Source: Saururus chinensis
Taxonomy: Eukaryota > Streptophyta > Magnoliopsida > Piperales > Saururaceae
DNA: 64,000 bases
NCBI GenBank assembly: GCA_035235625.1
Contig: CP141148.1
Location: forward strand, 25,483,057-25,547,056
Direction: 5' to 3'
A program made the position numbers and the translations under genes. The notes below the pieces were generated by a model. That model had not been told where the DNA came from and did not search any database. It saw only the letters and a list, made by a program, of their open reading frames with translations. Below are positions 4,822 through 64,000 of the stretch, in pieces; position 1 is the first letter of the stretch; the number at the start of each line of letters is the position of its first letter.

Positions 4822-4935
4822 TGTTGGCGTTAGAACAGCCTTGCAGGGCGTTCGAACGAAAACACTACAATTTTGGCATTTTTCCTGTGTAACCGTTAGA
4901 ACGGCCCTACAGGGAGTTTGAACGGCTACACTGCA
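4822..4935 (+). repeat. Imperfect palindromic cassettes in L1 LTR
   Basis: Two successive cassettes, each with a CCTGCAGGG- or CCCTACAGGG-type palindromic centre flanked by CGTTNGAACG-like arms. Related cassettes occur at 63830-64000 in the second L1 copy and, inverted, at 28355-28420. Confidence 0.55.
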
Positions 4936-5445
4936 GAATTTGACAATTTTATGTATGTTGCTTATTTCGACATATCTACTTCAAAATATCATTTTTATGT
5001 TTATGTGGAGTGTTTTGAGCTATTGTAAGCTACTGGAAGGGTATCCCATTGATGTTTAGAAGTTGTGGTATATATTTAAAGTTATGTGAAATGACTTGTA
5101 GTTGGATATCATTGTTAGAATTTGCTATCTTGAAGTTATGAGTGGTTAATTCCTATGGTTTAAGCATGTTTCCAGTAGAGTTACCGCATGATAATGAACT
5201 GTTATGTCATTATAGAGTGTGGCTAATTGATGTGTGAATGTTAGTGAATGTCATGACTCAAGAATGAAGTGAATGATTGTATATGTGTTTAGCTTGTGGT
5301 TAAGCTTTGATTTGAGTTATGATTTTAATGATTCTTCACCTATGATTTTCGTTGGAATTTCATGATTAGGTGATACACATGTGTAGTGTGATAGTGAGTG
5401 GATTACAATCATGTTGATATGCATTGAGAGAAATGCTTCTATTAT

Positions 5446-29100: not shown

Positions 29101-30359
29101 TTTCTATTTATAGTAGGCTTTGGGGTAGACCTAACAAAAATAGGTGGGGTTTAAATAGGATTTAACACTAAAAATGGAAAACTTGCTTATTTTAAGCTCA
29201 AATTTATGTCTAAAAATTTTGAAACATTTAATTACTATCTTAAGATATTGTTAGGGCCATTTAGGACCTATCATCCCAATTTTGCACGTGGGGCCCATGG
29301 CGGGTCTTGTCCCTAAGTTTTTGGAAAATTAGTCAAAAATTCTGAAAATTTTAGAAAAATCCCAATTAACTTATATTAACATAAAACCATCAAAGTGAAG
29401 ACAATTTGCTTAAAAATCATTGTTAACTACTTTAAATTGAAAAATAAGCCAACATTGATCAAAGTTAACATTAAACCACATAATAATTACTAAATTAAAT
29501 AAAATGAATGGGTTTAAGTTAGGGATCTTACAACCGTTTCCCAACTTCAAGCAGCCCCTACAATGTCACTTTTGCCCAAGCCGCAACTTGCCTAGGCTGA
29601 TTGGGTGAACCTTCGCAACCCCTTGATTCTTGCACCCTGGGCCTCTAAGCATTGTTTGAGAGAGAGGTGCACCAACCCTAACATTCGGTCCGCTTCGGCA
29701 CCTTTGATCAGCACAAAGAAGGAGGATGTGCAGGTTGGGATATGCGAGGCCCTCCAGGTGTTCGAGAAAATGCCTCAATGGTGCTGCTCTACAAAAACCT
29801 GGTCCACGAGTTTGAGGATGATTGGGAGGAGTACTTTGGCTCTCGTGGAGGACTTCGGGGTGGGGCTGAGCCATGTTTGGCTCATCTTCAGTTCCCATGC
29901 TACAATAAAGATGAAGACCAAGTGGAATGGCTATACAAGGCAAAGAAATTCTTCGCCTACCCGGGAACTCACTCCAAGGCTGAACGGTTGTGCATAGCCG
30001 CTTTCCATCTATATAGTGATGCTTCTATTAGGTTTCAGAGCTTTGAGAAGGAGGTCGGATTCCCAACTTGGACTTCATTCGCTGATGAGCTTTGTGTCCA
30101 ATTCAGCCCCAACGAGTTCCAAGATTTCAAAGAGATGTTGTCCACCCTACGTCAAACCACTACCGTGCGAGCATACTACACCGAGTTCATGAAGATTGCC
30201 AATCGCCTCCCTGATTGGCCGATGACAACTATCGTGGGAACTTTCAAAAGGGGGCTCAAACCAAAAAATTTGGATGAGATGCACCATTTTCACTGCACGT
30301 TGATGCGTGAAGTCATGCGTCATGCACGAATTCAGGAAGAGAAGCTGGCCCAACAATGA
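26141..30359 (+). pseudogene. Ty3/gypsy gag, split by an inverted LTR
   Basis: The probable gag start ATG is at 26141, shortly after the PBS, and the frame is cut at 26230 by an inserted LTR (26231-29532). After the LTR, gag-like sequence resumes at 29533 (TVSQLQAAPTMSLLPKPQL), has a stop, and changes frame. The open piece 29742-30359 (205 codons) holds the retrotransposon gag core: EWLYKAKKFFAYPG, then WTSFADELCVQF and VRAYYTEFMKIANRLPDWP. A degenerate zinc knuckle follows near 30508-30556, reading CFKHDEKFILGH where the second Cys has become His. Gag packages the element's RNA in virus-like particles; this copy is broken by insertion, stops and frameshifts. Confidence 0.8.
26231..29532 (-). 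mobile_element. Inverted LTR, 3.3 kb (L1-related), inside gag
   Basis: On the minus strand it starts TGTAAGATCCC (from 29532) and ends AAGGCATGACA (at 26231), like family L1. The stretch at 27230-27450, inverted, matches the L1 segment around 5850-5960 (AATCCAGAGT, CACCAGCTACCACGTGTT). It interrupts gag. The flanks are GTGGT and ACCGT, so no target duplication is visible, unlike the other solo LTRs here. No coding interior. Confidence 0.7.
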
Positions 30360-35534: not shown

Positions 35535-36270
35535 TTTCATATAATAGCTCAGCCAATAGGTCCATTGGCATGAGTCCATTTGAGGTTGTGCATGGTTATA
35601 AACACAAAAGGCCCATTACCCTTCTCCCCATGTCTCCTCATATTCTCATTTCTGAGTCTGCTTAAGCATTTGCACGACATGTCCATGATTTGCATCATGA
35701 GATCCGTAAACACATTGAGATTAGTAATGCACAATATAAACTTTATGCTGATTGTCGAAGACAAGAGAAAAAATTTACTGTGGGTGATTATGTTATGATC
35801 CGGATTTGCCTTGAGCGATTTCCATATGGGACAACCAAAAAATTGCAATCATGTAGTGCTGGTCCTTTCAAAGTTTTAAAACGGGTTGGACCCAATGCTT
35901 ATGCCATTGATTTTCTCTCTGATTATGGCATTAGTTCTACTTTCAACATCAGGATTTCGTTTCTTATCATGAACCTGCTCCTATTCCCGATGCCCTTTTG
36001 ATGACAACCGTCCTAATCCCCTTGATTGCCCTGCCCAAAAGCCTACATTGCTACCCTATTTGCCAGTCCCAAAAGAATAAATTGATGATATTTTAGATGA
36101 GCAAATTATTTCTACTAGGGATGAAGTAAGAGGTTTCTTGTTCATTGGGGTGGACGTCCAGATTCCAAGTGCACATGGCTAACCCGTGAAGAGCTCCACC
36201 ACATTGATCCAGACTTGTTGGAGTACCATTTGAGCTGCTGCAAGCCGTACTGTACGAGATCGAGCTTTTC

Positions 36271-38255: not shown

Positions 38256-39101
38256 ATGTCAATAAAAGGAAGAAAAGTCGGGGTGAGGGGGGGAAGAGAT
38301 GGCTGTTCATTATGCTTTTGGCCCCCTTGAAGATGACACAGTAATTCCTCACACGCACAACTACCACAATGGGTGAGCCCCGCTAAAGAAGCTTCAGAAG
38401 AAATTCACTGCTTTTGCTGGTTAAGTGGACAAGGACGCAGATAATTATAATGACTGTGAGAGGCTTTGCAAAAGCTTTTTACAGGAGATGGCCACATTTG
38501 AGCTTCCCCTCCTTAAGAGCAAGTCAGTCTTTGATTCAAATGTCGAGAGGAGGAGAATTTCGATGAATTGCAAGAAGAGATATGTTGCCAAATTATGCAG
38601 GCACAAATTGATATAGAGAATCTTAAAGTCCAGCTCGAGGAGAGTAAGATTGAGAGGCAACACAAGGAGGAGTGTGAAGCAATCAGAAGGGTAATTGCAC
38701 TTCAGCCACCTAGATCTGAGACTCAGAAGCATATCTCAGATCTTATAAGGGACATTGCCGGCTTCGAGGCTGAGAGTACAGCTGGTTCAAGGACATTAGA
38801 ATTGAGGAAGAAACAGTTCTCACTTCGGTTGCATGTGGTGAGCTGGTGTTTGTGCAAATTTCATAATTTTTATCAGCATAATCTGAACCATGGCAATGAA
38901 TTCTACCTACATGTATCTACTGAAGTTTTCAATATGGTGATTTCCTAAATATATATTTGAAATATCCAGGTAGATGAGCTTCAGAATACCATTGAGGACG
39001 AGTAGAAGAGTTTAGCTAAGGAGTTGAAACTTGCAATGAATAAGCACAAAAGTAGCTTGGAGGATGCGAATAGAGGTTCACAATCCATGGCCATTGATTA
39101 G
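38256..39101 (+). pseudogene. THO7: THO complex subunit 7 (THO7) pseudogene, copy 1
   Basis: THO7 is a coiled-coil subunit of the nuclear THO/TREX complex, which couples transcription to mRNA export. Recognisable blocks, in order, are [79 protein letters not shown] and [11 protein letters not shown]. An intron at 38838-38969 (GTG|GTGAGC to TATCCAG|GTAGAT) separates the last exon, which ends SQSMAID and a stop. Damage: a deletion and frame slip after DDTVI that removes part of the HRLLTRTTTT region, a stop at about 38423, a one-base loss near 38542, and a TAG at about 39003 where copy 2 has CAG. A TGCAG acceptor-like site precedes the start region. No poly(A) tail is seen and at least one intron is present, so it is not a simple processed copy. 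Confidence 0.85.
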
Positions 39102-42100
39102 TGTAGGTGTCTACTAAGGTTACATCTTAAAGCAAGTTCCGTGAATGTGATTTTTTGTACTTCAAGATCACAGCACATTTTATTACATTTTTTGTACTAT
39201 TGCTCGCTGTAGTTTATTTATTTATTTTTGGTTGACACCAAAAAATAAAATTCCACGCTAAGTTACCATTTAGCCTTGAGACTGAGTGATATCCATGTTT
39301 ATCTAATTAGTGTCTAGAAGAGTATTAGCTATTACAAGTTTCGTGTTTGATACACTACTGTCGTCTATACAAAGCTTCAACTTTATTGAGCCAATGAGAC
39401 GTTTTTCAGTTTGGCATTTCCTACACAACGAAAATGCATTTAAATATTCTCCTTGGCAACCCTATCGGCTTATGGTAGGTGTTTGGCTGGACGTTATCTC
39501 TTATACTCCCTCCATCCCACATTTAGTAGATTACTCCCTTAGGAAAGTTAAATTTTACTTAATTTGGCTCTCCAATGTTGACTCTACATGTGAGTGAATA
39601 TTTTTAAAAAAAATGAGAAACCCTACATGTGCATTTCTTGGTCAAGGGTGACACTGCCCTATCTTGTCTCATTGGTATTGGTTTAAAAGAAAATACTTGA
39701 GTGAAGTGACATTGTATACGTTAAAAGTCTATTTCATCATTTCCATAACATTGATGAGTGGGGCCCAGAAATGTGAGCCTCACTCAACAATGTTGCAATG
39801 GTGTGAAACCGGTGAAGTAGAGTTTTTACTCCTTCATTTTCAACAACATTGATGAGTAGGGCCCATAAAGTGAGCCCCACGTATGAATGATATGAAAACA
39901 ATGAAGTAGAGTTTTGACGAGTGAAACTTCATGTCACAATAACAGTACTCTTAAAAAATGACCTTGCTCAATAGTCAATCCAAGTTTGATTAGACATAGT
40001 GGCATTTTAGGTTGGGAATTTCTCAACATCAACCTACAATTTGCCCGAAAGAACCAAGAAAGGCTAGATGTGAACAAGCCCCCCCCTCTCCCGCCCGCGC
40101 ACACACACAGAAACAAACAAAAATTATAAAATCACTTGAGACAGGGTGGTAGGATGAGGACCAAGATGAGGGGGTAGTTTGGCTTGTGCATGTGACTATG
40201 AGGTGGGCCAAGATGAGTGTTGACACATACTAGGCAAGCATGCATTGGGAGGGCAATCAATTGAACTTTTTTGTATTTTAAAAAAAGTTAGAGGGTATAA
40301 GTGTAAACTTTGAAATGTGGGGGGTTTTATGTTTACTTTTAACTAAATTAAGGATGCATAAATGTATGTTTTTAAAGTGAGAGAGTATAGATTAATTGGA
40401 TAGTGATATACACTAAATGAATTTACTCAACAAACTCTCCTAACTAGGTTTTGGTGGGGTAAAATGTCATGCTCCGGCAGTACCCCATTGACCTGATTAG
40501 AAGGAATGAGAAGGGTGTGATGAGATTATTTCTAACTTAAACCCGGGATAGATCAAAGTACACGGTTATCATTTTGTACAAAAGTAATTACTGAAGTATA
40601 AGGAAATTAAATAAAACTATTAAACATTTACATACCCACATATAAGTTAGCAACTATAAGAGAGTCTCAAGCCTAAAAAACAAAAATAAAAGCCCAAACT
40701 ATCAAAATGAAAGGCGCTCTCGCAAACATAGTTATATCTCATAATCACATCAGATATCAACTATTGATTATTCCAAAATAGGAAAACTATCCCCGCTCCA
40801 CATCCGTTTAATTTCCACCATGCTCACAAAATAAAATTTCATGAGAACCTGCATGACAAATCCACATAGAGGATCCCATAGAGATTCCCAAAACAAAATA
40901 AGGTAGAGGGGTGAACATAGCCCAATATGGGTTTGAATATATGAAGCTCACACTAACACCATAAAACATCCTTAAGATGCTTAACATAAACCTCATGCAA
41001 TACCGGTATTAAGATTACAAGAGCATGTCAAATTCCTTACACATAATACTTGTGTAAATATTATAATCATGCTTTATAATCCATAAGCAAAACTTGTGCT
41101 AGTGCCTTAATAGTGTATCATAATTCACACACACAACTTGTGTAATTAAGTGTCATAATCCATACATAACCTATGTAAATGAACATCATTATCTATACAC
41201 AAAAGTTGTGCAAATAAGCATAATAGTCCACAAAATCAACGATAGAATAATCCCAGTACCCGAAGATATTGAATACCTACTTACCCACTATTCCTAATTA
41301 TCCAAAAATACTAAAAGCAGTTGACACTCATGTAAACTGGAAAATGCCCCTAGTTAGCTAGTGCACATGGACAAACCAGCCTAAGACTCACTCTAGAAGT
41401 CTCATTTAGTATTCTCAGTGTAGCATTCAACTCTTCTCGATCTGGGGAGGATAGACCTGACCTTTCAATATTGAAAACCCTGTTATTTTAGATGGAAAAC
41501 TGATTCATTCAAAGCTCTGATACTACTAATTCGGAATACCACGACTAATCATGGCTAATCCTAGTTTAACAAATTCTTTTCATGGCTTATGCAACGTAAG
41601 TTATATGTAAAGAATGTCAAATATATGCAATCACAAGTATTCGTACCAATAAATAGCCCAACCATGCATGAAACATGGTTCATATGTGGATAATATGGTC
41701 ATGTATGCCTAAGTGCATATAAACGCAAATAGTCATATTCATAAATGGTCTAGAGTGCATGGAACATGGTTGATACATGAATAATATCATGTGTGTGTAA
41801 GCATTCATATCATATCATGATAATTCTTTACTAGTTACATGTAAGAAACATGAATGAACCCTAAAAATCTAGCTTCAAAATAAGCATAAAAGTGAAAATT
41901 TACTTGGGCGATTGATGAGGCACATAGAAATGACAAACAATCACTTTAGTGATCAATTTGCTCGCAAATTGATCTTCCTGATAGGGAAATTGATTAATCT
42001 TTGTAAAATTTAAAGACAATTCGCCTAGCGATTGATCAACGCTCAAGGGTGATTGATTAATTGTGCCCAGAAACACGGAAAACAAAATAAATTTGGCAAA

Positions 42101-42885
42101 ACAAGACCGATTTTCCATCAAAACTTTAAATAAACATCATCTAGGATTTAGACATGATAGATCCAACATAACTCATCAATATTCATGTCAAGACATCATC
42201 AAAGTACATATTCAAGAAGAGCTAAGCTCACAAATCCATTATGCTTTAAGAATATGATTTAACATAAACAATCTATGGTATCAATGTAAGGAAAACTTCA
42301 CCAAATAAAAGCAATTTACCTCAAATCAGTAAGTAGTTCCTTCAAATTTTTTTCCCAAACTCAAGGAATTCCTAACCAACAAATTAGGTCACATTAGCCC
42401 TAAGCAAAATTTACACCTTTCCACCAAATAGTCTCAAAATCACAAATAGAAAGATAAATCAAGAATTTCCATGTGCCCAAACATGAAACAGAAGAGTAGA
42501 AACAAGTGACAAGGATCTAAGACTCAAAAACATGGGTAAAAGATGAAGCTTTGAAGAGTAAAAGACATTAAATCAAATGCAAGTAAGGACATGAGATTCA
42601 AGGAAGAAGCATAAGAAATCTTGAAGTAAACTTATTTGGCGTATGTTAGATAAAGTTAGAACACATGCATCCCCTTCTAGATAGATGTTAGAGCACAATA
42701 AATTCTTTAATCTCAACCACTCTCAAATGAAAGAATGAGCTAATTTGACTATTTATACAAGTGAATCGGTAAGTGGGTTTGCATGGGCCCAACAAAGGAA
42801 CAAGTGAAGCCCACCTTGGGAAATGAGTTAAAATAAATATAACAAGGCCTAAGACTATCTAATATTCCAATGAAGGTCGGCGGTT
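38571..42885 (+). repeat. 4.3-kb tandem duplication, unit 1
   Basis: Unit of 4315 bp starting inside the THO7 pseudogene at CAAGAAG. It contains the 3' half of THO7, ~1.3 kb of flank with its own ~95-bp direct repeat (around 39749 and 39845), and an inverted LTR-like segment from 40465. Unit 2 follows directly. In the first ~260 bp the two units differ at about three positions. Confidence 0.95.
40465..42885 (-). mobile_element. Inverted LTR-like segment (L1-related), in unit 1
   Basis: Starts TGTCATGCTCCGG on the plus strand, equivalent to the inverted end of L1-type LTRs (TGTCATGCC...). It contains an AGAGGGGTGA block like that in the inverted LTR near 26712. It is truncated at 42885 by the tandem junction. 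No coding content. Confidence 0.55.
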
Positions 42886-43416
42886 CAAGAAGAGATATGT
42901 TGCCAAATTATGCAGGTACAAATTGATATAGAGAATCTTAAAGTCCAGCTCGAGGAGAGTAAGATTGAGAGGCAACACAAGGAGGAGTGTGAAGCAATCA
43001 GAAGGGTAATTGCACTTCAGCCACCTAGATCTGAGACTCAGAAGCATATCTCAGATCTTATAAGGGACATTGCCGGCTTCGAGGCTGAGAGTACAGCTAG
43101 GTCAAGGACATTAGAATTGAGGAAGAAACAGTTCTCACTTCGGTTGCATGTGGTGAGCTGGTGTTTGTGCAAATTTCATAATTTTTATCAGCATAATATG
43201 AGCCATTGCAATGAATTCTACCTACATGTATCTACTGAAGTTTTCAATATGGTGATTTCCTAGATATATATTTGAAATATCCAGGTAGATGAGCTTCAGA
43301 ATACCATTGAGGACGAGCAGAAGAGTTTAGCTAAGGAGTTGAGACTTGCAATGGATAAGCACAAAAGTAGCCTGGAGGATGCGAATGGAGGTTCACAATC
43401 CATGGCCATTGATTAG
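42886..43416 (+). pseudogene. THO7: THO7 pseudogene, copy 2 (3' half only)
   Basis: Begins mid-gene at the tandem junction and carries [33 protein letters not shown] and [11 protein letters not shown]. The same intron follows, then the last exon ending SQSMAID and a stop at 43414-43416. It lacks the N-terminal half, the start codon and any promoter. Its last exon reads GAGGACGAGCAGAAG, keeping the Gln codon that is TAG in copy 1, so the stop in copy 1 is probably younger than the duplication. A transcript could only come from read-through. Confidence 0.85.
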
Positions 43417-44386
43417 TGTGGGTGTCTACTAAGGTTACATCTTAAAGCAAGTTCCGTGAATGTGATTTTTTGTACTTCAAGATCACAGCACATTTTATTA
43501 CATTTTTTGTACTATTGCTCGCTGTAGTTTATTTATTTATTTTTGGTTGACACCAAAAAATAAAATTCCACGCTAGGTTACCATTTAGTCTTGAGACTGA
43601 GTGATATCCATGTTTATCTAATTAGTGTCTAGAAGAGTATTAGCTATTACAAATTTCGTGTTTGATATGCTACTGTCGTCTATACAAAGCTTCAACTTTA
43701 TTGAGCCAATGAGACATTTTTCAGTTTGGCATTCCCTACACAACGAAAACACATTTAAATTTCTCCTTAGCAACCCAATCGGCTTATGGTAGATGTTTGG
43801 CTGGACACTTATCTCTTATACTTCCTCCATCCCACATTTAGTAGATTACTCCCTTTGGAAAGTTAAATTTTACTTAATTTGGCTCTCCAATGTTGACTCT
43901 ACACGTGAGTGTGAGTATTTTTAAAAAAAATGAGAAATCCTACGTGTGCATTTCTTGGTCAAGGGTGACACTGCCCTATCTTGTCTCATTGGTATTGTTT
44001 TAAAAGAAAAATACTTGAGTGAAGTGACATTGTACATGTTAAAAGTCTATTTCATCATTTCCATAACATTGATGAGTGGGGCCCAGAAATGTGAGCCTCA
44101 CTCAACAATGGTGTGAAATCGGTGAAGTAGAGTTTTTACTTCTTCATTTTCTACAACATTGATGAGTAGGGCCCCAGAAAGTGAGCCCCACATATCAATG
44201 GTGTGAAAACAATGAAGTAGAGTTTTGACGAGTAAAACTTCATGTCACAATAACATTAGTCTTTAAAAATGACTTTGCTCAACAATCAATCTGAGTTTGA
44301 CCAAACATAGTGGCATTTAGGTTGGGAATTTCTCAACATCAACCTACAATTTGCCTGAATGAACCAATAAAGGCCAAATGTGAACA

Positions 44387-44404
44387 TGCCCCCCCCCCCC
44401 TCCC
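44387..44404. repeat. C-rich homopolymer run
   Basis: A run of about twelve C followed by TCCCC in unit 2; the matching site in unit 1 (about 40079) has a shorter C run. Likely slippage or an assembly-sensitive spot. Confidence 0.8.
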
Positions 44405-44781
44405 CTCTCCCAGCCGCGCACACACACAAAAACAAACAAAAATAATAAAATCGCTTGAGACAGGGTAGTAGGATGAGGACCGAGGGGAGGGGGTAGTTTG
44501 GCTTGTGCATGTGACTATGAGGTGGGCCAAGATGAGTGTTGACACATGCTAGGCAAGCACGCATTGGGAGGGCAATCACTTGAACTTTTTTGTTTTTTAA
44601 AAAAAGTTAGGGTATAAGTGTAAAATTTGAAATGTGTGGGGTTTTATGTTTATTTTTAACTAAATTAAGGATGTATAAATGTTTGTTTTTAAAGTGAGAG
44701 AGTATAGATTAATTGGATAGTGATATACACTAAATGAATTTACTCAACAAACCCTCCTAACTAGGTTTTGGTGGGGCAAAA

Positions 44782-47280
44782 TGTCATGCTCCGGTCGTAC
44801 TTCATTGACCTGGTTAGAAGGAATGAGAAGGGTGTGATGAGATTATTTCTAACTCAAACCCTGGCTAGATCAAAGTACACAATTATCATTTTGTACAAAA
44901 GTAATTACCGAAGTATAAGGAAATTAAATAAAACTATTAAGCATTTACATACCCATATATAAGTTCGCAACTATAAGGGAGTCTCAAGCCTAAAAAAACA
45001 AAAAACAAAAGCCCAAGATATCAAAATGAAAGGCGCTCTCACAAACATAGTTATACATCATAATCACATCATATATCAACTATTGATTATTCCAAAATAG
45101 GAAAACTATCCCCGCTCCACATCCGTATAATTTCCACCATGCTCACAAAATAAAATTTCATGAGAACCTGCATGACAAATCCACATAGAGGATCCCATAG
45201 AGATTCCAAAACAAAATAAGGCAGAGGGGTGCGCATAGCCCAATAAGGGTTTGAATATATGAAGCTCACACTAATACCATAAAACATCCTCAAGATGCTT
45301 AACATAAACCTCATGCAATACCGGTATTAAGATTACAAGAGCATGTCAAATTCCTTACACATAATACTTGTGTAAATATTATAATCATGCTTTATAATCC
45401 ATAAGAAAAACCTATGCAAGTGCCTTAATAGTGTATCATAATTCACACACACAAGTTATGCAATTAAGTGTCATAATCCATATACAACCTATGTAAATGA
45501 ACATCATTATCTATACACAAAAGTTGTGCAAATAGGCATAATAGTCCACAAAATCAACTATAGAATAATCCCAGTACCCGAAGATATTGAATACCTACTT
45601 ACCCACTATTCCTAATTATCCAAAAATACTAAAAGCAGTTGACACTCATGTAAACTGGAAAATGCCCCTAGTTAGCCAGTGCACATGGACAAACTAGACT
45701 GAGACTCACTCTAGAAGCCTCATTTAGTATTCTCAGTGTAGCATTCTACTCTTCTCGATCCAGGGAGGATAGACCTAACCTTTTAGTATTGAAAACCCTG
45801 TCATTTCGGATGGAAAATTGATTCATTCAAAGCTCTGATACTACTAATTCAGAATACCACGACTAATCATGACGAATCCTAGTTTAACAAATTCTTTTCA
45901 TGGCGTATGCAGCATAAGTTATACGTAACGAATGTCAAATATATGCAATCACAAGTATTCATACCAATAAATTGCCCAACCATGCATGAAACATGGTTTA
46001 TATGTGGATAATATGGTCATGTATGCCTAAGTGCATATAAACGTAAGTAGACATATTCATAAATGGTCTAGAGTGCATGGAACATGGTTGATACATGAAT
46101 AATATCATGTGTGTACAAGCATTCATATCATATCATGATAATTCTTTACTAGTTACATGTAAGAAACATGAATGAACCCTAGAAATCTAGCTTCAAAATA
46201 AGCATAAAAGTGAAAATTTACTTGGGCGATTGATTAGGCACATAGAAATGACAAACAATCACTTTAGTGATCAATTGGCTGGCCGATCGATCTTCTAGAT
46301 ATGGAAATTGATTAATCTTTGTAAAATCTAAAGACAATTCGCCTAGCGATTGATCAATGCTCAAGGGTGATTGATTGATTGTGCCCAGAAACACGAAAAA
46401 CAAAATAAATTTGGCAAAACAAGACCGATCTTCCATCAAAACTTCAAATAAACATCCTCTAGGATTTAGACACGATAGATCCAACATAACTCATCAATAT
46501 TCATGTCAATACATCATCAAAGTACATATTCAATAAGATCTAAGTTCACAAATCCAACATACTTTAAGAATATGATTTAACATAAACAATCCATGGTATT
46601 AATGTAAGGAAAACTTCACCAAATAAAAGTAATTTACCTCAAATCAGTAAGTAGTTCCTTCAATCTTTTCCCAAACTCAAGGAATTCCTAACCAATAAAT
46701 TAGGTCACATTAGCCCTAAGCAAAAACCACACTTTTTCACCGAATAGAAGCTCAAAATCACAAATAGAAAGATAAATCAAGAATTCCCATATGCCCAAAC
46801 ATGAAACATAAGAGTAGAAACAAGAGACAAGGATCTAAGGCTAAAAAACATGGGTAAAAGATGAAGCTTTGAAGAGTAGAAGACATTGAATCAAATGCAA
46901 GTAAGAAGGACATGAGATTCAAGGAAGAAGCATAAGAAATCTTGAAGTAAACTTATTTGGCGTACCTTAGATAAAGTTAGAACACATGCATCCCCTTCTA
47001 GATAGATGTTAGAGCACAATAAAATCTTTAATCTCAGCCACTCTCAAATGAAAGAATGAGCTAATTTGACTATTTATACAAGTGAATCAGTAAGTGGGTT
47101 TGCATGGGCCCAACAAAGGAACAAGTGAAGCCCACCTTGGGAAATGGGTTAAAATAAATATAACAAGGCCCAAGCCTATCTAATATTCCAACGAAGGTCG
47201 GCAGTTCAAGAAGTTGGCATGACGAAGATGGTCGTGGGTCCTAGCATGGGGCCCGCATCCCTAATACTTATAACAATTAG
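44782..47280 (-). mobile_element. Inverted LTR-like segment (L1-related), in unit 2
   Basis: Same element as at 40465, starting TGTCATGCTCCGG, but continuing past the tandem edge at 47206 into unique sequence (GGGCCCGCATCCC around 47250), as expected of the parental copy. The true end was not found; the coordinate is approximate. Confidence 0.5.
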
Positions 47281-50423: not shown

Positions 50424-50701
50424 AGCATTCACTATGCATATGGTGTAGACTACTTTCTTAGATTAACAAAGTTGGAGGGGCCTATTTATTTTGCCAAATA
50501 GGCTATTCATTTTTAGGAATAACTGTGTCTATTACATTAAAATGTGAATCCTTATAAAAGGGGTAATGGGTAATAGTTAACTGATCAACCGATCGATTAT
50601 TAGTGGATGAAACGGATATGGAAAAACTTATGCCGTTTCTTTAACATAATGGTTATGATAATGAAATAAGTTATACCTATATTATTTCATTGACATCCCT
50701 A

Positions 50702-51955: not shown

Positions 51956-52852
51956 ATGGAAGGAGGCCAGGCTGCTAGGCTCACTATCAGGCAGCAGAAC
52001 CGCATGAACAACTTGGAGAAGAAGCTTGGCGAGCTCATTACTCTTTGTGGGACGGAGGGCTTTCTCATTTCCTCCTCCACCTCCTCCACAGGGCTCAAGT
52101 CATGGCCGGAGGATTTAGGGGTCCTTCTTCCCTTGGTGCAAAGGTATCGAAGCGTAGCGCAGCGAGGGATGCTTAGGAGGAAGCCTTCATCAAGAAAGTT
52201 GAGACGTGGATTGGGTGATCAGAGAAAGAAACCTGCATGGGTGGAATTGATGAGCCACAAGGACCATGAAACTAATCTAGATCGGATTCTCCGGTTTATA
52301 TCTGGCTATGAGAAGCTTGATTGCTTAACAGTAGAGCAGTTGAGAGAGGTGTTGGACCGCATGCAGCATGTTGAACTAATCCGTTCATCAGATTTGGAAG
52401 TGAAGGAAAGAGAGGTGAAGGAGGGAGGGAGGCTGTTGGATCTGTTGGGGAACTTCTCTGCAGAGAAGAAGTGCACAAAACGAGAGGTTGAATCGATGGA
52501 ACTGGTCGAAAAAAATTCAAGTGGTGCAATGGAGGAAGGAGGAGAGAAGGAAGAAGAGAAGTCTTGTTTGGTCACTTCTAGTAACCATTTCAGGCTATTT
52601 ATTGAAGGGGAAGAGCTTGAATCTTTGGAGGTGATGGGTAAAGTTGCAACCAGCATAGATGAGAAACGATGGAAAGAAATAGAAGACATGAAGATCAGAG
52701 AAGATGAGATTCAGTTGTCTTTTACTGGTGAGCAGATCAATTCAATGAAATTGGTAGCCAAGTTTGCAAGCAAAGCAGGGGATAAAAGAATGGAAGGAAG
52801 TAGAATCCAAGAGAGGCCTGATCTGGATCTATCACTTAATTTCAACCATTAG
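51956..52852 (+). CDS. MADS-like/EAR-motif protein A (298 aa), single exon
   Basis: An uninterrupted 298-codon frame with a strong start context (GGCACCATGGAA). Residues 15-66 resemble the second half of a type I MADS domain: NRMNNLEKKLGELITLCGTE, then WPEDL (50-54) and VQRYRS (61-66), where type I proteins have ELSTLCxVE, WPS and INRYK. The basic DNA-contacting start of a MADS domain is not present. Residues 106-136 (TNLDRILRFISGYEKLDCLT, then VEQLREVLDRM) form a predicted helical block shared with gene B. Repeated modules follow: HFRLFIEGEELESLEVMGKV (211-230), EIQLSFTGEQINSMKLVAKF (251-270), and a short form LLDLLGNFS (160-168). LDLSL at 290-294 fits the LxLxL EAR motif known to recruit TOPLESS-type co-repressors. 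Nuclear role is inferred. Its paralogue is gene B, 5.7 kb downstream on the same strand. That it is a gene is likely; the MADS origin is less certain. Confidence 0.75.
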   Translation: MEGGQAARLTIRQQNRMNNLEKKLGELITLCGTEGFLISSSTSSTGLKSWPEDLGVLLPLVQRYRSVAQRGMLRRKPSSRKLRRGLGDQRKKPAWVELMSHKDHETNLDRILRFISGYEKLDCLTVEQLREVLDRMQHVELIRSSDLEVKEREVKEGGRLLDLLGNFSAEKKCTKREVESMELVEKNSSGAMEEGGEKEEEKSCLVTSSNHFRLFIEGEELESLEVMGKVATSIDEKRWKEIEDMKIREDEIQLSFTGEQINSMKLVAKFASKAGDKRMEGSRIQERPDLDLSLNFNH

Positions 52853-54799
52853 AAAGTAAGGATGTTTTTTTCAGGCTTCGTTCGTATTGTAATTAGACTA
52901 CCTTCAATTTTTTAGTAGACAGTGTAAATTAACTCTCTATTGATTCAAGTATAGATTATCTATTTGCTTATATATTTTATTAGGTGGGTCATAATAGTTT
53001 TAATACTTATGAGCTCTTTTTTTTTTTGCATTCTTGTTTGCTGATATGTAAATTTATCAATGGTACTTTTCTACTACTAAGTAAACATTTGTGTTCATAT
53101 CATTTTGTTACATGTTTGCTTTGGTTATAGAGCAAAAGAGGATCTTAAATAGCATTAGTGCAATTTATCTCAATATGTAGTTTCAGCATTCAAATATAGC
53201 TGCAACAAGCATAACCATATGCGGCTCCAAACCATCCTAAGTGCTCCAAACCGCATTGTTGGTGAAAAGGTTTTCAATGAGACTAGGGTTTCTAATAACA
53301 AGAGAAGAATGTGGAATTCAATCTCATGGTGATAAGAGGTGGATTTACTTTGTGAATGTAAGCATTGGACCGGAGAGTTTCTACATGGAAGAGTAAATAT
53401 GATAAAAGAGAAGATTTCCTTGTGGGAAGAAAGAAGGAAGAAGGGAGAAGTGTTCAAAGAATGGTAAAACTGATATAATTATGGGAGGAAAGTTCTTCTT
53501 AGGAAGTGGATATTCTTGTAGTTTACTTTCTTTATACCAAAAGTCTACTCTAGTCTTTAATTAGACAGAGAAGGCGAGTCGTACTTTGACAAGATAAAAT
53601 TCATTTTCCCTAATCTAATCAGAGTGAATTACCATAACATGAAGATTCACCTTTCCCAGTTTAATCGGAGGCGGGAATAGGCTTTTAGTATAAAAAAACT
53701 AGAGTAGCAATATTATTTTCCTTTTTCTTTAGGCGCATTTGGATAATTCTTTCTCTTATGGTGTTTTTCCTCTTTGCAAGAGGAGGGTTCTTGCAAAAAG
53801 GGCCTTCTCATTTTTTTACACATCCACATGCAAAAATTTCTTACAGGATGATGACCAAAAGTATCTTTTCTCTCTTGGCATCCAAAAGACCCCTAAATCC
53901 TCAACAGAGCAAAGGTTACATTTTAAACAGATTAGAAAAAAATAGATACTGATGATTTTTTGGTGTTCATATTATCCCTTCAAGTAAAGAAAACAAATAA
54001 AGAGAGAATCCCATCAAAGTAATCGTTGTTTTCTTGTCATCTTCCTTGATTGTCATCAAAGGTGATTTTGTCATTCACAGTGAAGAAATCACAAAACTCA
54101 AAGTCATTTTAACAACAACGGGCAACTTGTAAGGCAACATTTGCAGCTCCTTCAGACTATTTATGTCTATAATCTTTAGTATCATATTTTGGTGATTCAA
54201 TTGCAGACTACGAAGATCAAGATGACTGATGTAAAGAGCTACAAATAAAGCCTCACAAGCAGCTGATTGTCGTTAAAATGACTTGTTTTTTTCATTGTGA
54301 ATAATTATATCACCTTATACCTTTATTTCGTCATTCCAATTGACGAAATATTGATTTCGTCACTCAACATGACAACATTTAGTAAAAAACAAGATGCACA
54401 CAAATTTCCAAGCTAACGCTTGCAAGGCAAGTGAGAACACCTATTTGGTAATTAATTTTCTTTCTCTTTAATTTTGATAAATATTTATGTTAATAATAAT
54501 TTTAATACACTTCCCTATAAGAAATTATCATAACCTAATTATACCTACGAGATGTGTGAATAAAACATAAAAATTTGTTAAACAATTTTGTATTTCAAAT
54601 TGTTATGTTTCCCAACCTGCTTAGAAGAGCCCTTTCCCTATAAGCCCAACCCCACTCCAGACTCGCTTCTATTTCAATCCATGTCGGGGGTGATATTTAA
54701 ACCTTGTACTATGGTCAAATGGGCACTATAAGAATGGGATGCTCAAAGGCCATTTATTCCTTTCCCTCCTGAGTTCATAAACTACCTATTGGTCTTTCA
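52853..54799. other. Intergenic stretch after gene A
   Basis: AT-rich. The first ~200 bases probably include the 3' UTR of gene A. Small frames at 53170-53457 (minus) and 53739-53945 (plus) are unrecognised and look like chance. Confidence 0.4.
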
Positions 54800-55433
54800 T
54801 AGGGTTGGGACAATTTAACCCGACCCATTTACCTGATTTGAACCTGACCTGCCTAACCCTGTACTCAACCCGACTTAAATACAATTAAGGTTAGGGTTTG
54901 AAAATTTTACCTATTTTAAAAATAGGGTCGGGTCGTGCTTTACCCGTATAACTTGCACAACCTAAACTTGACCCTATTATTTAATGATGTTATGATGCAA
55001 GATAGAAATATTTGAAAGAAATTTTCTTATAATTTTATTTTTTCCTATTGTTATTTTATTTAATAATTATTTAATAATTTTTTATATGATTTTTATAGTT
55101 TTGTGTGTGTATCTAATAATATTGCAATGCTCTATCTAACTCTCATTTTCTCAAATAACATGAAAAATGTGTCATTTATTTATAATGTTGTAATGTATCT
55201 AAAAATTCTTTATATTTGGCCCATGCAAAGATAATATATAAAATATTAAGATAAAAAAAATTAATGAAAAAAAGTAAGGTTACCTATATACCCAACCCAA
55301 TTAAAGTAGGGTTAGGGTTTGAGTTTTCAACTTGATTAACAAATAGAGTCAGATCATGACCCGACTTAATTTATATGCATATCAAAGTTGACCCGATTTG
55401 ATTTGACCCTACCCGACTCAATTTCCTGCCCTA
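54800..55433. mobile_element. hAT-like MITE, 634 bp
   Basis: Left end TAGGGTTGGGAC, right end TTTCCTGCCCTA, with many ACCCGAC/GTCGGGT blocks just inside both ends. Flanks GTCTTTCA (54792-54799) and GTCTTCCG (55434-55441) match at 6 of 8 bases, fitting an 8-bp hAT target duplication. Confidence 0.6.
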
Positions 55434-57530
55434 GTCTTCCGCATCATCAACAAAGGAAAAAAATCCAACCAAGTAAGATGGCTAGGACTGAGATCAAACC
55501 CCTCATCATTGGCTACCAGCACAAGGTTTGTATTACCTACGAAATTTTAGGTAATTTTTTACTAAACTTAGAAATTTTTTTGGGAATTTTTGTGAAGCTA
55601 GGAAGTTGTCCACACGTCCATTGACATAACAAATGACATGTTGCCACTAGTAGACGTGTTGATGTAGGGACAATCGTAGATGGAATTTCAAATATTCTTT
55701 TCTTGGCCCTAAGTTACATCTTGTCTATATAAAGCCTTTCCCTCGGCTTAACCCTTGGTCCTTCTTAATGTGCACCAAAGCTTTAAATAGGGAAATTTTA
55801 GTGGATCAAGGAGAGGAAATTGAGAAATAGAGGAGAAGTGGATTTGGGAGGTGTGTGAGCAAGAAGAATTTAATTTCGTGGGGTAGGATCATTGACTATG
55901 ACTAAGCCAAAGTCTTCATATGTTTAAATACGAGTTCAAACTCTAAATTGAAAGATTTCATAGGATTTATATCTGAAAATGACAGATTTTTTAGGTTTTG
56001 AACAATTTAGTTGACCGAAGCCAAATTGAGATCATTATGAGAGCTAACGACATCTATGGATTCTTATTAATTTTGCAAAATTTCTTGCCAACCTTAAACT
56101 CAATGTGCACTGCTATCTACAAATGGGACCATGAAAGTATTTTTAGATGAAGTTTTTATTTAACTCTTTCAACATGGGAAAATTGTAAAGCGTCATTATT
56201 ACATAATTTGTTAGGTATGCGCATAAGCAAATTCTTTTTATTTATATACTCATTCCTTCCTATATTAATAGTTACATTTGAAAAAATAATTATTTTTATT
56301 GAATGATAAAATTTATATTTAAAAGAAGGAAAAATAAGCTCATGATATTCTTTTATAAATGGGCTGATCTCATTTATAAATGGGCCGATCCCAAGCCTGA
56401 TTTGCCTGTTATTGTAGTGGGTCCGGCCTAGCATGCTTGGGAACCAAGTTATGCCAAGCCTAGGTATACAGGCACATGGGCCGACATGCTTGGTAGCCCT
56501 GAGTTACGAGCTAATATGGGCCGGCTCATAGACCCCCGCATAAGGTGAGCCCCCCTAGGTGCATGAGCAAGATCTGATTTTATAGCTGCGGGCTATAGCC
56601 AATAGGCCGTGACCAATTTTTTAAAAATAAAAAATTTTGGGTGGGTAGCATGACTAGTCGGGATAGTATGACCCTCTTTTTGAGCAAGCCTGGGCTAGCC
56701 TTGCTCGTTGCCACCCCTATTGATAGTGAAGCAAGGATGTGATGCTCCCATTTATATTTATTATATTTTTTTTTTCAAAATGGAAATTCATTTTGGAATG
56801 GGAGTATTAATCAAAGAACACTACGTAATTTTTCCATAAAAAATAGAACAAAATTTGATTTAATGGTGATATAACCGCTCAAATAGGGTTGAACTTGGAC
56901 TAAATAGCCAATAGACAAGTCTTGCTTGAGTCTGTGTCTAATAATAGTTTGCTTGCCAATATTTTGTCGCGAACAAAACCTCATATTTGACACTCAAAAG
57001 TACTATTTGTAGACATAGCCTTGTAAGTGATTAGATGAAGATTAAAATTATTAGAGAGAACAAGAGACATTAATAACTATGACCAAGTAAGGTAAAAGGA
57101 GATTTTTGCATTAAGTAATTTAGTATATAATAATAATAATTTAAATTTATACATATCATTTTATTTATTTATAGAAGTATTACTTATTGAATTTGCCTGG
57201 TACATATTTAATAATTAACTTCAATAAAAAAAATTCAAATATAATATTAATATTATTATATTTTAATTATTAAAATTTTAAATATAACAAAATAATATTT
57301 AAGAGTAGTTATAAAAAAATAAAAATCTCATTGCATAAGTGTAAATTATATTTTAAAGATTCAAATGCCTCGGGAAACGTGCACGACAATGCAATCGAAT
57401 TGATGCGCGTGGGCCTTTACGTAGGCCCAGGTATTGGCCCGCATGGGCCCGATGTATCAAATATGCCCATTTCCGGATTGCGATGTCCATAGTCGGTTCG
57501 CAATTCCAGCAATTTACCGGAAATGCCGAC
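55434..57530. other. Intergenic stretch
   Basis: AT-rich, with a patch of GGGCC/GGCCC-rich sequence at 56360-56720 ending GCCACCCCTA, possibly one end of another hAT-like repeat. No gene seen; small frames are unrecognised. Confidence 0.4.
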
Positions 57531-57531
57531 C

Positions 57532-57539
57532 TATATATA
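57532..57539 (+). promoter_or_regulatory. TATA box of MADS-like gene B
   Basis: TATATATA in the context GACCTATATATAGTAG, at the start of a locally GC-rich stretch (57360-57720). It is about 150 bases before a good splice donor, which places transcription start near 57565. Confidence 0.6.
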
Positions 57540-57564
57540 GTAGAAACACGGGCCGATCCCATTT

Positions 57565-57689
57565 CCGCCGGTTGGTTTCCGACGTTGTAAATGGTGGGAA
57601 ACACCGTCGAGCGAGCCACATCCCTAACCTTCCCTCCGGTCCGACCTCGCCGCCGTACTTCCCGGTCGCCGGCTTCCGTCGTCGGCCAG
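57565..57689 (+). other. Probable 5' leader exon of gene B
   Basis: A GC-rich segment starting ~30 bases after the TATA box and ending at GGCCAG|GTACTC. With the acceptor CAACAG at 58528 it gives a leader intron of 839 bases, leaving AAAATC before the ATG at 58535. Supported by splice signals and position only. Confidence 0.55.
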
Positions 57690-58534
57690 GTACTCTCTCT
57701 TCCTCCCTCGCCCGTCTGTCATATTTCTGCTCACCTCCGGTATTTCCTCTCCGCACTAAATTCATCTTGAATGATCATCGCAATAGCTATAAATGGCAAC
57801 CGGGAACTAGTCGTCTAGGTTGTTTAATAATCGTGTAATTTATGCATTTGAAAACCCGTTTACACTGTGCTGAAGGGTTGTTTGGTTTGGATTTGAGTGT
57901 TGAAATTGAGAACGAGGATACCTTTTCTTTGTGTTAATGGGAAACTTTGTAGGGAACGTTTGTATGGTGTTTGATCAAATGCCGTAGCGATAGATGGAAC
58001 ATTACTTTTATAAGGAATTGAAGTTTGGCACTAACTTTCCTTCTAGGCACGTCTGCCGTTTTGCTAAAAGAAATGGGCTCATTTCCATGTCCAATAATGT
58101 CTGTGGCTATGAAGGGGCCCTATATGTAATTTTCATGGAGATATGGAATTGGAAGAACAACGCTTTAACCAGGGTGTCACATGATCATGAATTTATGACT
58201 ACTGCTATTCTTTACAATGATTAGAGTGAAAATGATCCTATAAAATTTCATACAAGTTTGAAAGATGATAGGTAGGTAGAACTGTAGAAGTCGAAAATGT
58301 ACCAATGAGGGCATGATAATTGGGACTAGACATGAGTTTTCACTAAAAGGCGATGGGGAAATAAGAAAGTTAAGCCTCAGGAACAAGCTTTGATATTCTT
58401 TAATGTGCTTGAATTTATTTTTCAAACTGTAAGCCCTGCATCAGCAAATAGTCTGGTTAGAATTTCTAATTCCGTTTTTTTATGTGCAAAACCAAATTGA
58501 TTGCCTTATACCTTGTTTTCATCAACAGAAAATC

Positions 58535-59683
58535 ATGGCACAAGACCACGTCCATGCATCGAAGAAGATTACTGGAACAATAAAGCGGATAGAGAATGTA
58601 AAGAAAAAGCTTGATCAGCTTAATATTCTGTGTGGGACGGAAGGCTTCATCATCTACCCCTGTAGCAATGGGCTTCTATCCTTTCCGGACAGTTTAGACA
58701 GCATTCTCCCACTGATTGAGAAGTATCAGACTTGCATAAAATCAGGGTTATATAAGGGGGATAATGTTCCGAAGCCTTTAAAACCTTCAAAAGATGCAGC
58801 TACACTAGAGTTGGAATTGGCAAATCGAGATCACAAGCTGGCATGCATCAGCCTGGATGGACGTGAACAAGATATAAAACCACATTACACTGGGTTGAAA
58901 ATAGATGACCAGGAATCTTACTTGAGTAAAATTCTCCATTCTATTTCAGGTAATCACAAACTGGATAGTTTTTCTGTTGGGGAGTTGCGGGAGATATTGC
59001 ATCAGATTGATTCTCTTAGAAGAACTGCTCAAGTTAAGTTGAAGCCACTAGAGTTTCTAGAGAAATCTTCAAAAAGCATAACACATGGAAAAGAAACAGG
59101 CAATGGAGAAAAAGAAGAATCACATGTGGCTTTTCCCAAGCAACAACATGTGTTGTTTGATTTATTGGGAAAATTTTCTGATGGTGTTAAAGAGGATAGA
59201 GGGAAAGGAAATGTAGTACCACAAACAATGACAACTAGAGACAAGGATAAATTAGAGAAAGAAGACTACCCTTTTGGCCAGATCTCCAAAGAGAATTTTC
59301 GATTTGTTTTTACAGGAGAACAACTTCAATCTTTGGAGTTTATAGGTAAACTTTCAAACAACACTCAGGAGGAAAATAGTAAGGTCGAAGAAGTACACTG
59401 TAGCTTAGGAAATAGAAAAGAAAAGGAAACGGATGAAATATTTAGCCCCTTGAAAAAGGGACGAGGAAAGGGCATAAATGACGAACAAAGTACCAGTATG
59501 GGAAAGAGAAAAGAAAAGGAAACTGACAAGGTACCCTATCTAACCACTTCCAGAGATCAATTTCGATTATTTTTATTGGGTGACCAAATTGAGTCATTGG
59601 AAGTAATTGGAAAACTTTCGAGCAAAGTAGAGAAGGGAGATAGAAAGGATGATGAAGAAGCAATTTTAAAATTGGCTCTCTAA
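58535..59683 (+). CDS. MADS-like/EAR-motif protein B (382 aa)
   Basis: The upstream in-frame ATG at 58484 lies in the likely leader intron, so I take the ATG at 58535, seven bases after an acceptor (TCATCAACAG). Residues 10-64 resemble a type I MADS domain with an internal gap: KKITGTIKRIEN, then VKKKLDQLNILCGTEGFIIY, SFPDSLDSI and LIEKY. Canonical MADS proteins have about 14 more residues between RIEN and LCG, the basic DNA-contacting part. Residues 128-158 (SYLSKILHSISGNHKLDSFS, then VGELREILHQI) match gene A. Modules: NFRFVFTGEQLQSLEFIGKL (254-273), QFRLFLLGDQIESLEVIGKL (342-361), and a short form LFDLLGKFS (207-215). A second repeat, G-N/K-RKEKETD, occurs at 292-300 and 323-331. The protein ends in LKLAL (378-382), an LxLxL EAR-type motif. 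A co-repressor-recruiting nuclear role is inference. The frame is intact. Confidence 0.8.
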   Translation: MAQDHVHASKKITGTIKRIENVKKKLDQLNILCGTEGFIIYPCSNGLLSFPDSLDSILPLIEKYQTCIKSGLYKGDNVPKPLKPSKDAATLELELANRDHKLACISLDGREQDIKPHYTGLKIDDQESYLSKILHSISGNHKLDSFSVGELREILHQIDSLRRTAQVKLKPLEFLEKSSKSITHGKETGNGEKEESHVAFPKQQHVLFDLLGKFSDGVKEDRGKGNVVPQTMTTRDKDKLEKEDYPFGQISKENFRFVFTGEQLQSLEFIGKLSNNTQEENSKVEEVHCSLGNRKEKETDEIFSPLKKGRGKGINDEQSTSMGKRKEKETDKVPYLTTSRDQFRLFLLGDQIESLEVIGKLSSKVEKGDRKDDEEAILKLAL

Positions 59684-61640: not shown

Positions 61641-62733
61641 TCAAATTGCTTTTAATTGATTCTAATTGCAATTGGCTATTTTTATAAGAAGTTGCAAGTT
61701 GATGTCAATTGGTATTTTTGGTTAGGGGTCCTCTTGATATATTTTTTGTTAGATTTTAATTGTTTACTTTTGCTTGGTGAATTAATTCTTGTGTTAGGAA
61801 TTATAAGAATTATGCTTGGCACCGGGCCACGTGGCTGGCCTGCATCGTGCGGGACCCGCATGGCGGGTCCAGGTCACGCGGTGCGCCGACCACGCCCCGG
61901 TGTGCGACTCGCATCATACATGCGTTGTGTGCCAATTTTGCCATGTCACCTTTTTTTAATATATAAATCTGACTTTCGATGGTTGTTTTCATTTTCTACC
62001 ACATGTAAAACTTTTGTTCCTCCGTTCTGGGTTGTTTTATGTCCAAATCTGGCCGTTCCAAAGGCATTTTCACCTAAATCGACTGTGCCGAATGCTTTGA
62101 CGGGTCAGTTTTTCCATTTGAGCTCTCTACAACCACAAATTTTCTACCCTAAATTTAAGGTAGGGGGTCTTAAACTCTAGCTTATGCTCTGCTTGTATGG
62201 TTGACTTTTTATGCACCGTTTTCATTCCGTTATGTTTATTTGCTTGAGTTTTATGAAGCAATGCTATATTTATGCTATATTTTACCTACACGGAATTATG
62301 TTATGGTACATGTATTTTCTGGATAGTTCTGGGATTAAACCTAGAATTATATTTTGTCTGGATACATATCGAGGAAATAATTGGTATTTAGCACGCGCAC
62401 ATAGGTGTGAAGTGTCATGAAAAAACTCCTAGCCTTCTAAGCTTCCTGTTGCCCAATAAGCATAGGGAGGAACGCCATTTAGTATCACGACTCTGGATTT
62501 ATCGTCATCGAACGAACCAATTTTTCTATAATTATTGCCAAATTCTTTTCTATAATAAATTCTATTTTAGCAAAAATTATTACCGTCATGAGTATTTCTA
62601 CTTACCATTAAATTATATTTTAATTCCACCTACTAAGTATATAAAATACTCACCCACCTCAGACTCTACATGTAGTAAAATCAAACCAGAGGGATGACTT
62701 AGGAATTTTCTGCATAATTTTCTTGAGTGTTTT
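61641..62733 (+). mobile_element. Degraded LTR-like stretch (possibly L3-related)
   Basis: Contains TATATAAAATACTCACCCACC followed by TCAGACTCTACATG near 62637-62670, the position and form of the conserved block TATACTCACCCACCCC in the L3 LTR. A GC-rich patch occurs at 61820-61910. The 174-codon frame 61656-62180 has no recognised domain. It is interrupted on the right by the L1 LTR at 62734. Confidence 0.35.
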
Positions 62734-64000
62734 TGTAAGGACTCTAATTTTTAAACCGGTTTTTGTTTCATTTTAATCATCGGTTATTGCTTGGTTAACT
62801 CATTTCCTTATTTATTCGATGGTTTCGTAAATAAATGATATTTCTCTTGGTTTTAATCAAAATCAACTTTACAATTATTGGTTTTCAGTGATTTTGAGTC
62901 AAATCTGAATTTTTGGGATTTTTCTGAATTTTCACTAATTTTCCGAAAATTAGGGTTTGGCGGGACCCCCTGTGGGGCCTACAGTTGAAATTTGGGTTTT
63001 TAGACCAAACTAACCTAGACATCAACACAAGCCCTTACCAAAAATTTTCATAATTTTTTCTTGTTTAATTAGTGCTCAAATAGCTAAATTACCCATTTTT
63101 AGCTTATTATTTTATTTATACCCCACTACTTACTCATACACACCCTAAACTCTACTATAAATAGGATGACCTGAGCCATTTCCATTTTGTGAATAGGCTG
63201 GGAAAGGGTGGTTAGGCCTAATTCCCCAATTAGGCCCGGATTAGAAAGTGTTTAAGGTAAGTCTCTTCTAATTAAGCCTTAAACCCTAGATTTCCTCTTA
63301 ATCCTTTCTAGATCTACCATTTCCCCTTTGTTTTGATTCGTTTTTAAACATCAAAACTACTGATTTGCATCTCTTCTTCAAACCCTAGATCTAAAAATCC
63401 GATTTTTATGTTCAACATGCCCTAGATCTAAGTTTTTTATTAGGGTTTTCTATGTTAAATCGGTTTTAATGGAGTTTAATTTAAACTCTATCTATTTGCA
63501 ATGTTTTCAAGAAGGGTGACCATCAAATCCAAGCCTAATCAAGGGATAAGGTAATGGACTTTCGAAATTTCAGTTTTTCTATGGTAAAGCTCTTGATTTC
63601 ATGGGTTATTTTGAGTGGATTTACTTGATTTGGTGCTTTAATGGCATGATTAGGAAATGATAATCTTTAATCCCGATTTCATAGGGTTTTATCTTGTTAT
63701 GATGTGGATTAACTTTCTGGAAGTTATGGTAAAATTTTATTGGCATTTAGGTTCTTAGATGGTGATTTTAAGTTTTATCAAGGGAGTTTCGGTTTGAAGA
63801 TTTGAAATGGAGAAGAAGGTCGATCTGCCTTGTTGGCGTTTGAATGACCCTCCTGGGCGTTCGAACGATAATACTGTAAAATCGATAGATTTCCCACTTA
63901 GCCGATCGAACGGCCTGATTGGGAGTTCGAACGGCAACACTGTCAGTTCGACAGATATACAGTTTAGCCGATCGAACAGCCCTACTAGGCATTTGAACGG
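62734..64000 (+). mobile_element. LTR, family L1, second copy (cut by window end)
   Basis: Begins TGTAAGGACTCTAATTTT and parallels the LTR at 3725-7202 for its whole visible length with almost no net indel (AAGGGATAAGGTAATGGACT at 63541 and at 4531). The right end lies outside the window, so solo or full-length status is unknown. It includes the palindromic cassettes at 63830-64000. Confidence 0.85.
63830..64000 (+). repeat. Repeated palindromic cassettes, L1 copy 2
   Basis: Three cassettes spaced ~65-70 bp, each with a C-rich and G-rich palindromic centre (such as CCCTCCTGGG or CCCTACTAGG) between CGNTCGAACGG-type arms. Same position as 4822-4935 in the other copy, but with one more cassette visible before the window ends. 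Confidence 0.6.

Follow-up and report, generated by a model that had tools for sequence, protein, structure and literature searches.

Two neighbouring frames in a stretch of the Saururus chinensis genome raise the question of what kind of proteins they encode and what such a pair of proteins could do. The frames, named P1 and P2 here, lie on the same strand of a 64,000-nucleotide stretch of contig CP141148.1 (GenBank assembly GCA_035235625.1, positions 25,483,057 to 25,547,056); this stretch is the window referred to below, and coordinates are counted from its first letter. Both frames are old protein-coding genes under constraint, and profile comparisons of their N-termini make a MADS ancestry of the pair likely. 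As a tentative explanation of the pair as a whole, the two proteins would be dimerising, MADS-derived adaptors that recruit co-repressors.

Two old, constrained paralogous genes

An original prediction, made from the letters alone, had described two intact frames of 298 and 382 codons on one strand and had called them paralogues. Both frames are present, uninterrupted, in the open reading frame (ORF) list of the window (Table 1), and BLASTP aligned the two proteins over most of their length with 81 of 272 residues identical (30%; 89 bits, E 2e-24). A tblastn search of the whole 64-kb window with P1 and P2 did not find a third copy, and the best other match was at E 2.5. The shared features that had been claimed were also found, namely LCGTEGF, an LxxILxxISGxxKLDxxxVxxLRExL block, one pair of modules in each protein and LxLxL ends.

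The frames were further assessed by codon comparison and neutral simulation. The 283 aligned codons were identical at 54, 64 and 39% of their first, second and third positions, and nonsynonymous changes per site (dN) were 0.59 against 2.52 synonymous ones (dS), values that are rough because dS is near saturation and the alignment gappy. When 2000 copies of each gene were simulated without selection, the frame survived in 1.1% (P1) and 0.6% (P2) of them at 0.1 changes per site, and in 0.1% and 0% at 0.2 changes per site. Frames that remain open despite this expected closure, together with the codon evidence, indicate that P1 and P2 are real genes under constraint rather than chance frames.

Profile evidence on MADS ancestry

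Type I MADS sequences were fetched with AGL80 as query, which gave 765 matches at E <=1; the Mgamma counts given below refer to the 120 proteins listed among them. A hidden Markov model (HMM) of the Mgamma N-terminus, built from 116 of these 120 proteins, scored the first 80 amino acids of P1 at 20.1 bits and those of P2 at 11.9 bits (over residues 9-45), and neither score was reached by any of 10000 full-protein shuffles. On full-length P1 the same model scored 15.8 bits over residues 14-66, likewise reached by none of 10000 shuffles. An hhalign comparison of the P1 and P2 N-termini with 26 Mgamma proteins gave E 1.5e-5 (probability 80%, score 39.1); none of 300 column shuffles reached this score, the best being 23.3. 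Furthermore, both proteins meet the Pfam SRF-TF profile in one register, with R16 of P1 and R18 of P2 placed on profile position 15, and a blind scan of the window, which covered all its 2012 open segments with at least 20 residues, put P1 clearly first (E 0.0005). In a sequence search of the PDB at E <=10, the sole match of P2 was the MADS domain and second helix of SEPALLATA3 (residues 17-67, E 0.2), and P1 was without any match. An AlphaFold2 (AF2) model of the N-terminal 80 amino acids of P2 is helical, with low confidence, over residues 4-34 and 54-69, the places expected for MADS helices I and II. Taken together, these comparisons point to a likely MADS ancestry, on the strength of P1 and of the pair jointly and not of P2 alone.

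The subgroup is less clear. A profile of the pair's N-termini scored 15.8 bits against AGL80 and, with author-supplied sequences used for the other three proteins, 14.7 bits against SEP3, 12.3 against PHE1 and 11.7 against AGL62, each reached by none of 5000 shuffles; with the full-length pair profile, AGL80 and SEP3 (author-supplied sequence) were still reached by none of 5000. The original prediction had linked the pair to type I, which these scores do not establish, in that the type II protein SEP3 scores about as well as AGL80; on these scores neither type I nor type II descent appears favoured.

Modules, terminal tails and a possible adaptor role

Beyond the MADS-like region, the two proteins share a middle block around ISG..KLD. 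The idea that this is the Mgamma C-terminal block (MFQxLxGK...DLNDLGxxID) was refuted with an HMM of that block built from 103 of the 120 proteins, as the 100-amino-acid middle regions scored at chance and 5082 (P1) and 571 (P2) of 10000 shuffles reached their scores. A K-box, for which the original prediction had proposed a profile search, is not among the two (P1) and three (P2) Pfam families listed at E <=10. The repeated modules are clearest in P2, where the internal repeat has a score of 88 that none of 5000 shuffles reached (best, 52); the repeat of P1 is degenerate, with a score of 46 that 3 of 5000 shuffles matched or exceeded (best, 47). A third P1 module near residue 177 was rejected, its score of 35 being equalled by 137 of 5000 shuffles.

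A module-profile search of the PDB found no convincing relative of the modules. Polyubiquitin reached E 1.2e-5 only by summing repeats, its best single stretch being 13 residues at E 1.6, and chemokines appeared at E about 1; both were taken as chance. The full pair profile placed guanylate kinase first in the PDB (E 0.035, in the module region), which was also taken as chance, and SEP3 second (E 0.35). Alternating hydrophobic residues suggest that each module may form a beta-hairpin; strands are drawn there in the AF2 model of full-length P1, which was made from a two-row alignment, is poor (predicted local distance difference test, pLDDT, 36) and carries little weight.

Of the two EAR forms, LxLxL or DLNxxP, LxLxL was found in the tails of both proteins, and P2 has a second LxLxL at residue 91. 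An LxLxL within the last 12 residues arose in 1.3% (P1) and 1.0% (P2) of 100000 shuffles, so that the tail of each protein by itself is suggestive of an EAR motif, and the case is stronger because both paralogues carry such an end. LxLxL alone is a weak motif, which counts against the explanation proposed next.

The best explanation overall, which we hold with considerable reservation, is that P1 and P2 are a pair of dimerising, MADS-derived co-repressor adaptors; descent of both, as old tandem paralogues, from a MADS transcription factor is part of this explanation and is in itself likely. The helix I and helix II region would still dimerise with ordinary MADS proteins, most likely of type I, and the missing N-terminal arm would weaken or alter contact with CArG boxes. 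The C-terminal LxLxL would bind TOPLESS-type co-repressors, and the GEQxxSLExxGK modules may serve as partner-binding segments with charged linkers between them. The resulting dimer would turn off the targets of the MADS partner in one of two ways, by bridging to a co-repressor while bound to DNA or by poisoning the partner away from DNA, and would probably act in reproductive tissue. Against the background of M-type heterodimers and of EAR/TOPLESS repression by AGL80, which is a precedent, this is the simplest reading. Arabidopsis AGL80 pairs with AGL61, its EAR motif binds TOPLESS and MYB98 is repressed via CArG boxes; the AGL80 EAR motif is reported to be conserved only in Brassicaceae (PMC7609669). 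EAR motifs occur in more than 20 Arabidopsis MADS proteins (PMC6639411), and heterodimers of Malpha with Mbeta or Mgamma proteins, with the second helix as part of the dimerising unit, are described in a review (PMC13293092). A more specific version, which we regard as unlikely, is that these are lineage-restricted adaptors that lost the arm, kept the dimer face and gained modules and an EAR tail, and that would convert activating MADS dimers into TOPLESS-recruiting ones.

The comparison with known systems shows where the pair departs from them. Like AGL80-type Mgamma proteins, P1 has both the helix I motif KK..EL.TLCG and the W-P region, and the LxLxL tails of P1 and P2 recall the TOPLESS-binding EAR motif of Arabidopsis AGL80 (PMC7609669). 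However, the arm MTRKKV is retained by the 26 aligned Mgamma proteins (MTRKK in 26 of 26), whereas the P1 and P2 frames are without it; LxLxL is found in 29 of the 120 listed proteins and starts within the last 12 residues in none of the 120, whereas it is terminal in P1 and P2; the narrow module pattern GE[QE][LIV]xS[LM][EK] occurs in 0 of 120; and the Mgamma C-terminal block is unmatched in the pair. The likeness to MIKC proteins, and to SEPALLATA3 in particular, extends over helix I, the strand region and helix II (SSMLRTLERYQKC against DSILPLIEKYQTC) and includes the PDB match of P2, but MIKC proteins differ by the K-box and MIKC genes have several introns, whereas the P1 and P2 frames are intron-free. 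With EAR-motif repressors in general the pair shares the terminal LxLxL, but no DNA-binding domain of the pair passes a Pfam cut-off.

The claim that no described family has such an architecture holds in part. AGL80 already joins type I MADS, an EAR motif and TOPLESS binding in one protein (PMC7609669), so that the combination of MADS and EAR is not new; what sets P1 and P2 apart is their modules, an LxLxL placed at the C-terminal end and the lack of the arm. These three features were named in no title or abstract opening found in a literature search whose coverage excluded most subscription journals, and a literature search for LCGTEGF gave no paper. About 5.8 billion proteins, including plant nr and UniRef, were searched with at most 100 five-residue words per query, a procedure that relatives at 30-40% identity can escape; no relative at E 0.01 was found among 1924 (P1) and 3258 (P2) candidates, which is weak evidence. 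A scan of viral contigs matched 273 stretches by pattern and confirmed none, as expected for a plant gene.

Development of the central cell and the endosperm is under the control of M-type MADS genes, and brakes built into the dimers of their proteins would be of broad interest. If the adaptor explanation is true, P1 and P2 would provide one, as old and constrained MADS derivatives that have no arm and end in a repressor tail, and surveys of MADS genes that apply the SRF-TF cut-off would miss genes like P1 and P2.

Table 1. Positions of P1, P2 and their parts within the 64,000-nucleotide window.
Feature	Residues	Position	Strand	Basis and remarks
P1 coding frame, 298 amino acids		51956..52852	+	ORF list; homology to P2, E 2e-24; dN < dS
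P1 MADS-like region	14-66	51995..52153	+	Mgamma HMM; SRF-TF 14.3 bits, sub-threshold; canonical residues 1-8 absent
P1 LDRILRFISGYEKLDCLTVEQLREVL block	108-133	52277..52354	+	common to P2; Mgamma C-terminal block unmatched
P1 LLDLLGNFS, possible half module	160-168	52433..52459	+	aligned with P2 LFDLLGKFS
P1 module 1 (FRLFIEGEELESLEVMGK)		52574..52675	+	module alignment
P1 module 2, degenerate (IQLSFTGEQINSMKLVAK)		52694..52795	+	self-alignment, 3/5000 shuffles; module alignment
P1 EAR-like LDLSL	290-294 of 298	52823..52837	+	pattern; shuffle rate 1.3%
P2 coding frame, 382 amino acids		58535..59683	+	ORF list; homology to P1
P2 MADS-like region	9-67	58559..58735	+	Mgamma HMM; SEP3 PDB match; canonical residues 1-6 absent
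P2 LSKILHSISGNHKLDSFSVGELREIL block	130-155	58922..58999	+	common to P1; Mgamma C-terminal block unmatched
P2 LFDLLGKFS, possible half module	207-215	59153..59179	+	aligned with P1 LLDLLGNFS
P2 module 1 (FRFVFTGEQLQSLEFIGK)		59279..59380	+	self-alignment, 0/5000 shuffles; module alignment
P2 module 2 (FRLFLLGDQIESLEVIGK)		59540..59641	+	self-alignment, 0/5000 shuffles; module alignment
P2 EAR-like LKLAL	last five, from 378	59666..59680	+	pattern; shuffle rate 1.0%

Alternative readings and other features of the window

Among the alternatives, the one that survives best, which we consider somewhat unlikely, is that P1 and P2 encode ordinary divergent M-type MADS factors that bind DNA, with their first residues supplied by an upstream exon or with helix 1 sufficient for binding, and with a C-terminus that is merely fast-evolving. 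R3, K/R5, R17, K23, R24, K30 and K31 of the MADS domain contact DNA. In the common register of the pair, canonical positions 1-8 (P1) and 1-6 (P2) are absent from the frames, and R3 and K/R5 are lost with them; position 17 holds L or K, and K23 is N in P1. R24, K30 and K31 are kept in both proteins, and P2 also keeps K23, so that DNA binding may persist, which favours this alternative over the adaptor explanation. A sequence resembling a 3' splice site (CCTTGTTTTCATCAACAG then AAAATCATGG, in frame) at 58511-58534, directly before the ATG of P2, suggests an intron in the 5' untranslated region or an upstream exon, and P1 has a weaker CAG, in frame, 18 bases 5' of its ATG. However, both listed ATGs stand in good start context (A at -3, G at +4), and type I MADS genes are usually single-exon. 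The arm was not found by pattern in the roughly 5 kb upstream of either gene, though a short exon could escape such searches, and the pattern M-x-R-x-K gave one site only, at 58217, in a frame with stops. High divergence and fast turnover of M-type genes, described in PMC13293092, are consistent with ordinary factors of this kind. The predicted loss of a normal DNA-binding surface therefore does not follow: neither frame encodes the canonical arm, but helix 1 still has basic residues and the arm could be coded in an exon further upstream, and DNA binding by the pair is best called doubtful.

A non-MADS, lineage-specific family, whose helical N-terminus would resemble MADS helix I by chance, is still less probable, and several results that weigh against a MADS origin speak for it. 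Neither protein reaches the 26-bit cut-off of Pfam SRF-TF (PF00319), the profile with which the original prediction had proposed a search (P1 14.3 bits, E 0.028; P2 12.6 bits, E 0.093), and for P1 this family ranks second to the unrelated Peptidase_M10_C (15.1 bits, E 0.021), itself rejected as below its family cut-off of 20.7. Comparisons over full proteins are weak: the Mgamma N-terminal HMM gives full P2 only 7.3 bits, reached by 2 of 10000 shuffles; hhalign finds the same place with only E 0.0012 and a probability of 19%; and the full-length pair profile scores PHE1 at 7.5 and AGL62 at 7.1 bits (author-supplied sequences), values that 5 and 4, respectively, of 5000 shuffles attain. A full-length Mgamma HMM fails to separate either protein from shuffles, in that the 10.5 bits of P1 equal the top score among 5000 + 5000 shuffles, a shuffle has the better best domain (10.2 against 8.8 for P1), and the two domains of P2 score -0.9 and 0.7. 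P2 alone is near background in the blind scan, second by a narrow margin in whole-segment score (E 0.2, 8.5 bits; next segment E 0.29, 7.9 bits) and behind that segment in best-domain score (7.4 against 8.0). The AF2 model of the P2 N-terminus, which has the two expected helices, is missing the beta-hairpin (strand region pLDDT <50, mean pLDDT 55, predicted template modelling score 0.28). Foldseek with this model gave four matches, none a MADS structure (best E 3.4), and a second look (2 rows) gave none either; the model is too poor for the fold to be judged or for these matches to be weighed. The middle block, too, is unlike Mgamma. Against a non-MADS family stand the single SRF-TF register of both paralogues, the N-terminal shuffle controls and the prominence of P1 in the blind scan. 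Profile comparison thus upholds the predicted MADS origin, with strong evidence from P1 and weak evidence from P2 taken singly, whereas both proteins miss the Pfam cut-off.

Decaying pseudogenes left by an M-type birth-and-death process are very improbable: pseudogenes are suspected among the M-type genes (PMC13293092) and the P1 repeat is degenerate, but the frames are open at about 2.5 synonymous changes per site, when neutral simulation closes nearly all copies at 0.2, and dN is well below dS.

The window has eight perfect CArG boxes (CC[AT]6GG); two of them, at 50698 and 50966, lie 1.0-1.3 kb upstream of P1 and could reflect autoregulation or chance. Elsewhere in the window, an adjacent tandem duplication of about 4.3 kb (38571-42892 and 42886-47213; 94% identical) carries in each copy a segment of THO complex subunit 7 (Pfam THOC7, E 4.8e-13 and 9.7e-12). 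Remains of a Ty3-type retrotransposon are found at 29682-30359 and 35666-36001, with gag at E 8.1e-13 and a Tf2-1-like SH3 domain at E 7.7e-14. Near both ends of the window lies a pair of 1.2-kb repeats in the same orientation (3724-4936 and 62733-63946), which are 85% identical.

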